Origin: Methanoplanus endosymbiosus
GTDB taxonomy: Archaea > Halobacteriota > Methanomicrobia > Methanomicrobiales > Methanomicrobiaceae
Assembly (NCBI RefSeq): GCF_024662215.1
Contig: NZ_CP096115.1
Location: 2,232,001-2,296,000 of the forward strand
Reading direction: 5' to 3'
Length of the DNA stretch: 64,000 bases
How positions within the stretch are numbered: position 1 is the stretch's first letter; each line of letters starts with the position of its first letter. The translations under genes were made by a program, and so were the position numbers. The notes beneath the pieces were generated by a model. The model had not been told where the DNA came from and made no database searches. It worked only from the letters and a program-made list of their open reading frames with translations. This document shows positions 49,114-53,614 of the stretch, one piece after another.

Positions 49114-49818
49114 ATGTATGGTCATTATAGCTATCCGTTTTCCATAGAGTCTGGTGGAATAAAGATCGATGTTACAGAGGAGAATGGTCTTTATTTATAC
49201 CGCAGGGAATGCTGTGGTGAAGTGCATGATAATTATATTCAGGCAAAAAACGGAAGTATAATAATTAATCCTGTAGAACCTGTTAATCTCCCATCTTCTG
49301 TAACAAGTCTTCTTCAGGTTAAATTCAAAAATCTGGTTGTCGAACCTCAGTCTGTAGTACTGTTCTATCTCACATTTCCCATTGAAATTGGTGTTTTTTT
49401 GCATGCCGGAAAAAATACTGAGTTAATTGATGTTTTTTCAGTAAATGAGCAGAAATATTCTTTGTATGGATCTCCCACAAAAGGAACAATTGTCAGTTAT
49501 CGTGAGAGTGATATTTACAGGACCATTCCTGAGACTGATATATTTAAAGACGGAGTTCTTTCTCTTACTCTAATAAACTCCGGAAAAGATATTGCAAATG
49601 TTTCATCTTCGGTTTTTGACGGATGGGGCATGAAATTATACTATAATGATAACTGTGTCTCAATGGTGGCAGAAATGAATCTCCTTCATAATAATACTGC
49701 TGAGACAACATTTCTCAATGTTCCTTTAATTGTCGGGATGAATAAGTCATATGAGATCTATACCTCAAGAAAGATTTCGGTTACTAAAAAGTCATTTCTG
49801 ATGGAGCTTGGTTATTGA
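49114..49818 (+). CDS. DUF432 family protein
   Basis: 234 residues, predicted all-beta and soluble. Conserved parts of the euryarchaeal DUF432 family are visible: GHYSYPFSIESGGIKIDV at the start, INPVEPVNLPSSVTSLLQVKF, SVVLFYLTFPIEIGVFLH and FSVNEQKYSLYGSPTKGTIVSYRESDI. The family's biochemistry is not known. Its stop overlaps the start of the adjacent mechanosensitive channel gene (TGATG). DUF432 genes next to MscS genes recur in methanogens, so a regulatory or membrane-proximal partner of the channel is a reasonable inference. Confidence 0.8.
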   Translation: MYGHYSYPFSIESGGIKIDVTEENGLYLYRRECCGEVHDNYIQAKNGSIIINPVEPVNLPSSVTSLLQVKFKNLVVEPQSVVLFYLTFPIEIGVFLHAGKNTELIDVFSVNEQKYSLYGSPTKGTIVSYRESDIYRTIPETDIFKDGVLSLTLINSGKDIANVSSSVFDGWGMKLYYNDNCVSMVAEMNLLHNNTAETTFLNVPLIVGMNKSYEIYTSRKISVTKKSFLMELGY

Positions 49819-50657
49819 TGATGGAGAATCTGACTGGCATGGTCTCTTCCTGGAATATATCCGGTACCGGGGTGACGGTATATGAACTGTTTTTATTTAT
49901 TCTGATTATTGTAGTCTCCTTTGCCCTGGGTCAGATAATATCAAAAAAACTGAGAAAAGATATATCCGGTAAAATTCCGGTTAATGATCGTGAACTATTA
50001 ATAAAAATCGTATATTTTACAATACTGACTGTCGGCCTTATTACAGCCCTGCCGTATATAGATGTTGATCTCTCCGGAATTTTATTTGCCGGCGGAATAA
50101 TTGGTATTATCATTGGTTTTGCCGGACAGAACCTTTTTTCAAATTTCATCTCCGGAATTGTAATATTTATAGAAAGACCGATAAAAATTGGTGATAATGT
50201 GGGTGTCGGTGATGTCCTGGGCACTGTTGAGGATATCAGAATTCTTTCTACAATAATTAAGACTTATGACGGTATTTACACCCGTATTCCTAATCTCACG
50301 ATATTTTCGTCTAATATCACAAACTATGTTGCCAACGTGGCAAGACGGTTTGAATATTCGGTTGAGATAAGATACAGGGATGATGCAGAACTTGCAATGT
50401 CGGTTATAAAAGGTGTAATTGACAGCCATCCTTTTGCCTTAAAATATCCTAAACCAGTGGTATTTGTTGACCGGCTGGGGCAGAACGGAGTTGTGATTAT
50501 TGTAAAAATCTGGGCACCGTCCTCTGTCTGGTGGGATGTCAGGAGAGAACTGCTGCAAAAGATAAAGCTTGCAGTTGAAGCAGAAGGCGTAGAGATACCC
50601 TTCCCTCAGAGAACTGTGTGGTTTCCGGAAAAAAATCCTGTTTTTTCTGAAAAATAG
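49818..50657 (+). CDS. mscS: MscS-family mechanosensitive ion channel
   Basis: 279 residues from ATG 49818 (a TTG three bases upstream is also open). Two to three N-terminal helices: TVYELFLFILIIVVSFALGQ, LLIKIVYFTILTVGLITALPY and GILFAGGIIGIIIGFAGQNL (the pore-lining TM3 with the small-residue pattern). The MscS core follows: NFISGIVIFIERPIKIGDNV and GTVEDIRILSTIIKTYDG, IPNLTIFSSNITNY, and the C-terminal alpha-beta domain VEIRYRDDAELAMSVIKG. It should relieve turgor after osmotic downshock. It is cotranscribed with the DUF432 gene. Confidence 0.92.
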   Translation: MMENLTGMVSSWNISGTGVTVYELFLFILIIVVSFALGQIISKKLRKDISGKIPVNDRELLIKIVYFTILTVGLITALPYIDVDLSGILFAGGIIGIIIGFAGQNLFSNFISGIVIFIERPIKIGDNVGVGDVLGTVEDIRILSTIIKTYDGIYTRIPNLTIFSSNITNYVANVARRFEYSVEIRYRDDAELAMSVIKGVIDSHPFALKYPKPVVFVDRLGQNGVVIIVKIWAPSSVWWDVRRELLQKIKLAVEAEGVEIPFPQRTVWFPEKNPVFSEK

Positions 50658-50791: not shown

Positions 50792-53614
50792 TTATATCCA
50801 GGAGATATCGCTCCGGTTGCCTTTGTTTTTGCCGGTTTCTTCTTTTTTCCTGTTGTTATTTGATTTTTGCTCTGTATTTATCTCTTCTAAATTATTCTCT
50901 CTTTTGCTGCCTGAGGTTTCCTGATCAAATATATTGCCATTTATATTATCATTCTTCCGGGTGTTTCTTTCATTTCTTCCGGAAATCTCGCCTCTGATCT
51001 TAACACCTCCTGAGAGGAGTTCCTTTGGTCCTGGGTTGCTGCCAATTTTAACACCTCCTGAGAGAAGTTCCTTTGGTTTTTTTATCCCTCCTGAAAGTCT
51101 CATATTGTCCGACAGAAGTTCCTTTGGTCTTGTATTGCTGCCAATTTTAACACCGTCAGAGAGAAGTTCCTTTGGTTTTTTGATCTTACTTCCGACTTTA
51201 AAATTCCCGCTGTCCTTAGGGACAATATTCTGCCTTACAGATATTATTCTGCCTGAAATTGAATTGTCATTGGCTTTTTTTACCTTTGCAACCGAAATTA
51301 CGCTGCCTGCAAATGCACTGTCATTTGGCCTCTGTTTGGACCCTGCAGATAAACTTCCTCCGGCGAATGAATTCTCAGACGGCCTCTGTTTGGACCCCGC
51401 AGATAAACTTCCTCCCCCGAATGAATTCTCAGACGGTCTCTGTTTGGATCCCGCAGATAAATTTCCTCCTCCAAATGAATTTTCAGACGGCCTCTGTTTG
51501 GATCCTGCTGAGAAATTTCCGGTTGAAAAAGATCTGTCATTTGCTTTAAAAGCTGTACTGCCAATGCTTATCTTTTCACCAACTCTTGCGACATCGCTCT
51601 TCTCTCTTGGCATCTGCGGGCCTTTGATGCCGCCAACTTCGAATATACGATCCTTTGGTGCTTTGCCGAGACTGACATCTGTCATTCTGGTCATATCAGC
51701 AATATTTTTGTCAGCCCTTCCCGGAAGGGATATCCCTGAATCTTCTGTATTTTCCCTTTTTTTATTATTTTTGACTTTAATCCGGTTGTCCTTATTATTT
51801 ATCTCACTTTTATCTGATGAACTTCCTTTTTTTATGGAATCTTCCCTATATCTGGAAAGCTCTTTTTTTAATTCCTCATATTCCTCACGTTTGACATAAT
51901 CTATTGAGGTAAGAGGATAATTTTCCGGTTCATAACTTCGGGATCTTTCTTCTTCGTATCTTTCCGGTTCATCGTCTTCAAGAAGTTCATTAAATGAATA
52001 TCCTCTGGTGCAGCCGTTATTGTCTTCCTCTTCTACAATCTGAATCAGGTTAATGTTTTTATCCTCAAAGAATTCCACAATGTTGAGAGATTCTGTATAA
52101 TCACTCTCATTATTTTCATTTACATAACTCATATCTTTAATAACCTCTTCTGCTTCGATGATTGGTGGATGGATCTCTTCGTCATTAATTGTCTCCGGAG
52201 GTTTTGAAGAAAAACCTCCGTCTATAAGCTCCCAGACATCGTCATCAGGATCCCCTTTATAATATTCCTCATCATCGGTCTCTTCATTATGTGGTATATC
52301 ATCATCCTGCTCTGTTTTGGACCGGTTACTGATCTCATACAGATCAAAAGATTCTTCCTGACAACTTTCATCTTCAGAATCTTCTGTTCCGGCATTATCA
52401 CTGTTTAAAAGCAGATTTATCTCTTCATCCATCAGTATTCTGCTCTCAGCATATTCTCTCTCTCTCTGCTCAGTTTCTTCCTTATATTCTTCACTTAACT
52501 GCTTTATTTCCTCAAGGCGCGGGATATTCTGAATTCCTGAGAGCATAATGATGATGCCTACATATTTTGTGGATCTTACAGGGTAATCTCCGGAGCGCAT
52601 CTCAAGTCCTGCAATACTTGAATCGATCCATTTCCGTACAGTCTGAAAGCCTTTCATTGAGAGTTCTTTTGACGGCCCGGCGATGAGAATCAGCGCTTTA
52701 TACGCGCTTGTCAGGTCACACGGTATTGAGATCTCTTCATAAACTGCTTTTTTTGCAAGAGAAACTATTCTGGTGGCCCTCTTATGTGATCCATCACTGA
52801 AATATGATTCAGGCCTTAACTTCTGGAGCGGATCAAAGCGGTTTCTTGGCAGTTCCTCAATTGCGTAACCTATTGCTGTGATGCCATTATCCTTCAGAGT
52901 GTTCAGCACTTCCCCCGCATCCAGAACGACTTCCGCATATTCGACTCCGGATTCATTGAATTCTCCTGCGCGCAGCAACAGACCGATCTGACGTGATATT
53001 TTATCATTCAGCAATTTGTAGAGGTCCCTTGGGTTATCGGGGAATATCTTTGCGTATGCTGCCTGCCTGATGTGGGATTTCCCTTCATCATCCACTGATG
53101 TTTCATATGATGCCTTGATCTTTCTGTACCAGGTCTCATTGTCAAAAAGAATAATTCCATCCACAAATTTTTCTATTTTTTTGATGTCATCCGCGGCTTT
53201 TGCAGCAATTCTCTTTCCTTCATTATGGTACGGCAGGGTGCAGACTGCAAAAACGGGTTCATAATAGGCTTTTCTTATCTCCTCTGTGATCTCCGGAATA
53301 ATGTCGCTTAAACTTCCTCCAAGTCCGGTAAATACAAGAATTGCATCAATATCCAGATTGTCCAGTTTTTTTATCTGCGCCATTATCTCTTTGATGTCAA
53401 CAGTTGATCTGGTGTCATAGTGGACATCAGGATCAATTGCGGGAAAGAATATTTTGCAGTCGTTAGGGAGGTTTTTAAGTTGATTTAACAGGTTACCGTC
53501 TACATCTATCACAACCGAGGAGATACAGCTTACGCTGCTTCTTCTGTCCTGATAATAGAGCTGATCAACAATTCTTGATCCTGCTCCTCCCAGTCCGACG
53601 GCAAGTATTTTCAT
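50792..53614 (-). CDS. FtsZ/tubulin-like protein with long repeat-rich tail
   Basis: 940 residues. Residues 1-365 are a tubulin/FtsZ-like fold: MKILAVGLGGAGSRIVDQL (nucleotide-binding loop 1) and VFTGLGGSLSDIIPEI at 95-110 in the place of the FtsZ GGGTGSG loop, then PVFAVCTLPYHNEGKRIAAK and VDGIILFDNETW. The signature is degenerate (GLGGSLS), so GTP turnover is uncertain. Residues about 366-640 are strongly acidic and disordered. Residues about 640-940 are Lys/Gly/Ser-rich with two families of tandem repeats: four copies of an 18-residue unit (SAGSKQRPSENSFGGG.., about 697-769) and four of a 16-17 residue unit containing PKELLS (about 810-869). It resembles the archaeal FtsZ-like families proposed for membrane remodelling (Makarova and Koonin), not cell-division FtsZ. 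Its partners are unknown. Confidence 0.75.
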   Translation of the reverse strand: MKILAVGLGGAGSRIVDQLYYQDRRSSVSCISSVVIDVDGNLLNQLKNLPNDCKIFFPAIDPDVHYDTRSTVDIKEIMAQIKKLDNLDIDAILVFTGLGGSLSDIIPEITEEIRKAYYEPVFAVCTLPYHNEGKRIAAKAADDIKKIEKFVDGIILFDNETWYRKIKASYETSVDDEGKSHIRQAAYAKIFPDNPRDLYKLLNDKISRQIGLLLRAGEFNESGVEYAEVVLDAGEVLNTLKDNGITAIGYAIEELPRNRFDPLQKLRPESYFSDGSHKRATRIVSLAKKAVYEEISIPCDLTSAYKALILIAGPSKELSMKGFQTVRKWIDSSIAGLEMRSGDYPVRSTKYVGIIIMLSGIQNIPRLEEIKQLSEEYKEETEQREREYAESRILMDEEINLLLNSDNAGTEDSEDESCQEESFDLYEISNRSKTEQDDDIPHNEETDDEEYYKGDPDDDVWELIDGGFSSKPPETINDEEIHPPIIEAEEVIKDMSYVNENNESDYTESLNIVEFFEDKNINLIQIVEEEDNNGCTRGYSFNELLEDDEPERYEEERSRSYEPENYPLTSIDYVKREEYEELKKELSRYREDSIKKGSSSDKSEINNKDNRIKVKNNKKRENTEDSGISLPGRADKNIADMTRMTDVSLGKAPKDRIFEVGGIKGPQMPREKSDVARVGEKISIGSTAFKANDRSFSTGNFSAGSKQRPSENSFGGGNLSAGSKQRPSENSFGGGSLSAGSKQRPSENSFAGGSLSAGSKQRPNDSAFAGSVISVAKVKKANDNSISGRIISVRQNIVPKDSGNFKVGSKIKKPKELLSDGVKIGSNTRPKELLSDNMRLSGGIKKPKELLSGGVKIGSNPGPKELLSGGVKIRGEISGRNERNTRKNDNINGNIFDQETSGSKRENNLEEINTEQKSNNNRKKEETGKNKGNRSDISWI
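51010..51185. repeat. 48-51 bp repeats encoding the PKELLS units
   Basis: Conserved AGTTCCTTTGG (reading PKELLS on the minus strand) occurs at 51018, 51066, 51117 and 51165, spaced 48, 51 and 48 bp. The units alternate between GGVKIGSN- and RLSGGI-like fillings, i.e. an imperfect two-unit repeat. Confidence 0.8.
51310..51525. repeat. Four 54-bp tandem repeats encoding the SAGSKQRPSENSFGGG unit
   Basis: The core GCCTCTGTTTGGACCC-like sequence is at 51328, 51382, 51436 and 51490: exactly 54 bp apart. Third-position differences between copies show selection on the protein rather than simple recent duplication. Confidence 0.9.

Follow-up and report, generated by a model that had tools for sequence, protein, structure and literature searches.

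What kind of protein is encoded by a solitary open reading frame of Methanoplanus endosymbiosus in which a tubulin-like head is followed by a very long tail, and what might such a tail do? The window analysed here is a stretch of 64,000 nucleotides (contig NZ_CP096115.1, positions 2,232,001 to 2,296,000 of the forward strand), and all coordinates below are positions in it. The open reading frame was confirmed as first described and has orthologues across the order Methanomicrobiales.

50792..53614, minus strand: complete open reading frame of the long-tailed CetZ, 940 residues
53990..54991, plus strand: luciferase-like reductase (probably mer), divergent neighbour and marker of the orthologous locus

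In most orthologues the gene is likewise adjoined by mer and galT, mer being divergently oriented, and the gene downstream is convergent. No operon partner of the CetZ gene was found at the locus, the flanking genes being oppositely oriented, and a partner was rejected as a clue to function since the gene is solitary. On the plus strand at 49114-50657, a DUF432 gene overlaps a gene for an MscS-type mechanosensitive channel, both converging on the CetZ gene; the two are likely to form a two-gene operon, and DUF432 may be a partner of the channel. A 321-residue antisense frame (50934-51899, plus strand) mirrors the repeat region and looks like a by-product of the codon composition of the repeats.

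The head is a CetZ specifically, within the tubulin superfamily. Its score of 155.2 bits against Pfam CetZ_C (PF21011) lies above the curated cut-off of 21.6, as does its 54.6 bits against the Tubulin/FtsZ GTPase domain (PF00091; cut-off 33), while the FtsZ equivalog TIGR00065 gave 33.1 bits, far below its cut-off of 295.2, and 24.4 bits in the genome search. The best PDB sequence matches were CetZ1 and CetZ2 of Haloferax volcanii (4b46, 4b45), to which a profile search added the Methanosaeta thermophila CetZ 3zid. When the head alone was modelled with AlphaFold2 (mean pLDDT 75.9, pTM 0.80) and submitted to Foldseek, the best match was 4b46 (E 2.9e-27, TM 0.73/0.83) and the top matches were CetZ structures. 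The head shares with H. volcanii CetZ1 and CetZ2 the tubulin-superfamily fold, CetZ_C, the T1 and T7 loops and FDN..W; however, those proteins have about 350-395 residues and lack a long tail, and CetZ1 carries the canonical T4 loop GLGGGTGSG. An earlier note, made from the sequence alone, had proposed a tubulin-superfamily head with a degenerate GTP-binding loop, GLGGSLSD, and both proposals hold, the former through the Pfam, PDB and Foldseek matches and the latter through the missing T4 signature.

52517..53614, minus strand: CetZ head, residues 1-366, from Pfam, PDB sequence matches and Foldseek
53579..53596, minus strand: T1 nucleotide loop GLGGAG, residues 7-12, conserved
53303..53326, minus strand: degenerate T4 loop GLGGSLSD, residues 97-104 (canonical CetZ: GLGGGTGSG)
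52898..52924, minus strand: T7 loop LDAGEVLNT, residues 231-239, acidic pair near-invariant

A relative was found in 197 of the 199 genomes of the order, with an open frame of 540-1150 residues in most of the matches listed. Outside the order, relatives fall to about E 1e-36, the same level as ordinary CetZ, and a profile search returned one haloarchaeal match at E 5e-56. We examined 81 orthologues at full length, with tails spanning 7-775 residues; 66 were counted as tailed (at least 60 residues; 70-775) and 15 as shorter or tail-less. Every genome examined in families f1-f4 and f6 has a tail and the shortest tails lie in f5. Members of this CetZ subfamily thus normally carry the long tail in five of the six families sampled, whereas parts of the sixth have lost or shortened it. 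The architecture had been taken as exceptional; within this subfamily it is instead the rule. The simplest reading is that the tail is ancestral, with several losses or reductions within f5.

In the tree, CetZ and the long-tailed clade fall together apart from FtsZ (support 100/100), and the orthologues, whether tailed or not, group in a single clade (97/93) that excludes the canonical and Methanosarcinales CetZs. An order-specific second CetZ of Methanomicrobiales is the best explanation of the gene. A published survey reports that every Methanomicrobiales genome has two CetZs, of which one falls outside the Halobacteria-like branch, and describes a non-Halobacteria-like group of Archaeoglobales, Methanomicrobiales and Methanosarcinales with structure 3zid (Brown and Duggin 2023, PMC9856176). 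The long-tailed CetZ probably belongs to this group, although our tree separates the clade of Methanomicrobiales from the CetZs of Methanosarcinales. Two further loci with paired genes were seen. One genome of family f17 (G220; L187/L207) has two tandem CetZ genes, of which that of 392 residues gave the strongest profile match beyond the order and that of 419 residues apparently lacks the usual T4 signature; in another (L209, G311), the canonical gene is adjoined by a further CetZ-like gene that is very divergent and lies on a very long tree branch.

Across the 81 orthologues, T1 (GLGGAG), FDNETW and T7 (LDAGE[VI]LNT) are highly conserved. The T4 signature GGGTG[ST]G is absent among the 40 commonest T4 variants listed for these proteins, tailed or not, which are of the type GLGG[SNT]xx[DE] or modifications of it. 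The 390-residue second CetZ of the genome retains the signature, as do most of the canonical CetZs of other classes examined. Because this signature is missing, we file the protein as a divergent CetZ subfamily and not as a canonical CetZ, and because the loop is degenerate, canonical GTP binding is doubtful. By analogy with known FtsZ and tubulin structures, the longitudinal interface would be kept and the phosphate contacts altered.

The remaining residues form the tail.

52394..52522, minus strand: charged helix leaving the head, residues 365-407, AlphaFold2 pLDDT mostly about 86-89
51872..52516, minus strand: acidic linker, residues 367-581, predicted disordered past the helix (pLDDT about 30 from residue 411), net charge per residue -0.27
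51545..51739, minus strand: conserved tail block SGISLPGRADKNIADMTRMTDVSLGKAPKD..., residues 626-690, dN/dS 0.066
50990..51544, minus strand: basic Gly/Ser repeat region, residues 691-875, degenerate 15-19-residue family
51327..51520, minus strand: 54-bp tandem array of 18-residue units (Tandem Repeats Finder: 3.6 copies, 90% match, no indels)
51000..51176, minus strand: 48-51-bp tandem array of 16-17-residue units, PKELLS (Tandem Repeats Finder: 48 bp, 3.6 copies, 68%)
50795..50812, minus strand: C-terminal tip SDISWI, residues 935-940, a conserved, putative docking peptide with some resemblance to the FtsZ2 tip

The full-length AlphaFold2 model has a folded head, a helix to about residue 407 and a pLDDT of about 22-40 over most of residues 411-940, and no Pfam domain was found in the tail. 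Its composition is acidic to about residue 580 and Lys/Gly/Ser-rich thereafter. A boundary near residue 365 and a long disordered tail of this composition had both been proposed; the first agrees with the model, and the second with composition and low pLDDT, as a prediction. Between two Methanoplanus species, dN/dS is 0.039 for the head and 0.17 for the tail (0.21 for residues 367-625, 0.105 for the repeats). Against a same-genus relative whose head is 96% identical, the tail differs by exactly one 18-residue and one 16-residue unit, plus small indels. Because of this dN/dS and the difference of whole repeat units, the tail is very likely translated and under purifying selection. These values bear on the reading of the tail as a dispensable entropic spacer or neutral low-complexity expansion, which would accord with the 100-fold variation in length and with loss or reduction in several lineages of one family. 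The selection on the tail and on its conserved block, of which a DMTR-like motif occurs in 37 of the 66 tails, argues against it, as does the conserved tip; we regard it as very improbable and already disfavoured.

The two tandem arrays encode RPSENSFGGGSLSAGSKQ and PKELLSGGVKIGSN units. The 54-bp array contains no indels and is therefore in codon register, in agreement with the exact register first reported. Two separate repeat families had also been claimed; both arrays are real, but they represent the extremes of a single degenerate family, with units of 15-19 residues, that occurs throughout the order. In units like RPSENSFGGGSLSAGSKQ and RPKELLSDNMRLSGG the elements follow a common sequence, namely [KR]P-x-[DE], a hydrophobic residue with glycines, and then alternating hydrophobics. 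The core motif [KRQG][PA][KNSRTI][DE] occurs 275 times in the 66 tails, whereas shuffled tails gave 60 +/- 7; the distances between copies peak at 15, 18 and 19 residues and at their multiples, and at least three copies are present in 50 of the 66. Absence of the repeats from close relatives would have told against the earlier note; they are present there. No other protein with the same repeats was found in the genome at E <= 1.

Such features could make the tail mainly a multivalent scaffold, its charge blocks and repeats bundling filaments, binding membrane or nucleic acid, or condensing, with the tip secondary. A scaffold whose repeats could recruit partners or phase-separate had been put forward in the earlier note. 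The order-wide repeat family and the purifying selection on the repeats are consistent with this, and the charge segregation of the 940-residue protein's tail exceeds that of all 500 shuffles. However, segregation is significant (p<0.05) in just 32 of the 66 tails, so the acidic-then-basic layout is not universal; the acidic block leads in all 66 merely because of how the tails were split, and this count carries no evidential weight. Repeat number and tail length are also plastic, and short tails with few motifs retain the tip. We consider a predominantly scaffolding tail improbable.

The C-terminal peptide, which the earlier note had overlooked, is probably the most informative part of the tail. 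Its consensus is DDGIxWI, that is, acidic residues, D/G, [ILF], x, W and I, followed by 0-1 residue. Tryptophan lies in the last three residues of 54 of the 66 tails of at least 60 residues and of none of the 15 shorter ones (the sequences are related and the counts not independent), and is rare elsewhere in the tails (55 of 22,021 residues). The pattern [ILVFM]x[FWY][ILVMA]x? ends 49 of the 66 long-tailed CetZs versus 4 of 695 neighbouring open reading frames, the background being the ends of such neighbours. The tip is found in 22 of 34 genera and is kept on short tails of 98, 117 and 165 residues. Some tailed lineages have lost it (genus g32, part of g21, and 3 of 9 in g16/g18). A frameshift hiding the tip was considered for three tip-less tails (L084, L090 and L116), and none was found in the other frames. 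In genus g32 (L092, L093 and L113), tails of about 200 residues end in VARAREDLKKMD[EG]K[QH] in place of the W tip, possibly a replacement docking element.

The tip was compared with the ends of other tubulin-like proteins. FtsZ2 tips of the same order read LIDFIR, HLIDFL, LLEWVG, SFDWIM and DIMWM, so F and W interchange within FtsZ2 itself; FtsZ1 tips read IDFL[RK], rarely IDFMK. The F/W swap in FtsZ2 (L167-L186) occurs between lineages, and FtsZ1 is constant as IDF[LM][RK] in 31 of 31 genomes. A matrix built from FtsZ2 tips placed 43 of the 66 long-tailed CetZs above the 99th percentile of 644 background ends, the sequences being related, whereas none of the 15 tail-less orthologues and none of the 12 canonical CetZs reached it; an FtsZ1-tip matrix placed only 1 of the 66 there. 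The reverse matrix, from CetZ tips, passed 21 of the 31 tips of FtsZ1 and only 3 of the 21 of FtsZ2. The resemblance to FtsZ2 is therefore probable yet not tight, and a match over 5-7 residues can be convergent. Archaeal FtsZ2, which bears a SepF-binding peptide, likewise consists of a core, a linker and a conserved C-terminal peptide with the tip [IL]x[FW][IVM]; it differs in that the present protein has a CetZ head, a far longer linker and a degenerate T4 loop. An FtsZ-like layout is apparently undescribed for CetZ in the literature consulted, and a search of the survey's main text (PMC9856176) found neither a disordered tail or extension nor a linker or repeat mentioned.

Canonical CetZs (L188-L197 and L012; about 390-430 residues), from Archaeoglobi, Halobacteria, Methanomicrobiales and others, also have conserved acidic-hydrophobic ends, such as DELDPLF, DEDIEPLL and SVDPLFE, although these differ from the long-tailed tip; the Methanosarcinales CetZs end in ..GLEPEY. 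These ends suggest that ordinary CetZ may also have a docking peptide. The main rival to an FtsZ2-like tip therefore starts from the canonical acidic tip, from which the long-tailed tip would be derived as a CetZ-type peptide that docks not on SepF but on a partner specific to CetZ, such as a surface-assembly factor or a member of the MinD family, with the linker just adding reach. The occurrence of such tips across the phylum speaks for it, and in H. volcanii MinD proteins are reported to regulate CetZ1 localisation (PMC11621097). On the other hand, W/F followed by I/L is FtsZ-like and not DPLF-like, and 0 of 12 canonical CetZ tips pass either the FtsZ2 or the long-tailed CetZ matrix. We consider this derivation rather unlikely, but more credible than a scaffold.

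We favour, at about an even chance, a CetZ polymer that is tethered, with SepF as the most plausible anchor, by an FtsZ2-like docking peptide at the end of a variable-length spacer. The layout of such a putative tether, with head, linker and tip, can be read directly from the sequence; we infer further that the protein would polymerise, bind SepF and act in shape or division. The conserved T7/T1 interface would join the heads into a polymer, whose handling of phosphate would be altered because T4 is degenerate. The long flexible tail would hold the filament off and its tip would be captured at the membrane, for which SepF, a membrane anchor that recognises archaeal FtsZ C-terminal peptides, would be the most plausible receptor. 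CetZ filaments would then be placed at FtsZ2 sites, or would compete with FtsZ2, while the basic repeats after the acidic block might add multivalent contacts (tail-tail, with acidic lipids or with partners). The complex of Methanobrevibacter smithii SepF with FtsZ has been solved (7AL2). SepF of this species accommodates the FtsZ C-terminal peptide NEDQLDDFIDGIF in a hydrophobic groove (LDDFI), and acidic residues add ion pairs (PMC8178401). H. volcanii SepF pulls down FtsZ2 and not FtsZ1 (PMC8187382); the CetZs of that species are reported to act in shape and not in division (PMC8187382), which counts against a SepF or division reading. SepF is single-copy in 31 of the 31 genomes tested. Its presence or copy number was considered as a covariate of the tail and rejected, since the single copy is also found where the tail is absent; such non-covariation is expected of a shared FtsZ anchor and gives no support.

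A bolder form of the tether reading, which we hold to be possible but somewhat doubtful, is that the whole order has rewired CetZ into the division apparatus, with an FtsZ2-type peptide on a long linker sharing or competing for SepF and physically coupling CetZ, as the cytoskeleton of shape, to FtsZ, as the division ring, the canonical phosphate loop having been given up. The peptide resemblance points to a possible docking site in common between the machineries of shape and division.

The survey noted above counts two CetZs per Methanomicrobiales genome and, in its main text, leaves the long tail of one unmentioned (PMC9856176). The tail-less orthologues at the shared locus are natural controls for this tail, and the loss of the T4 signature across the subfamily is a natural test of the nucleotide chemistry that a tubulin-like polymer needs. 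The fast-evolving linker, 98-775 residues long, terminates in a conserved tip, and this arrangement offers a concrete hypothesis, cheap to test, for the cellular positioning of CetZ; were the tip to bind SepF, one membrane anchor would serve both CetZ and FtsZ.
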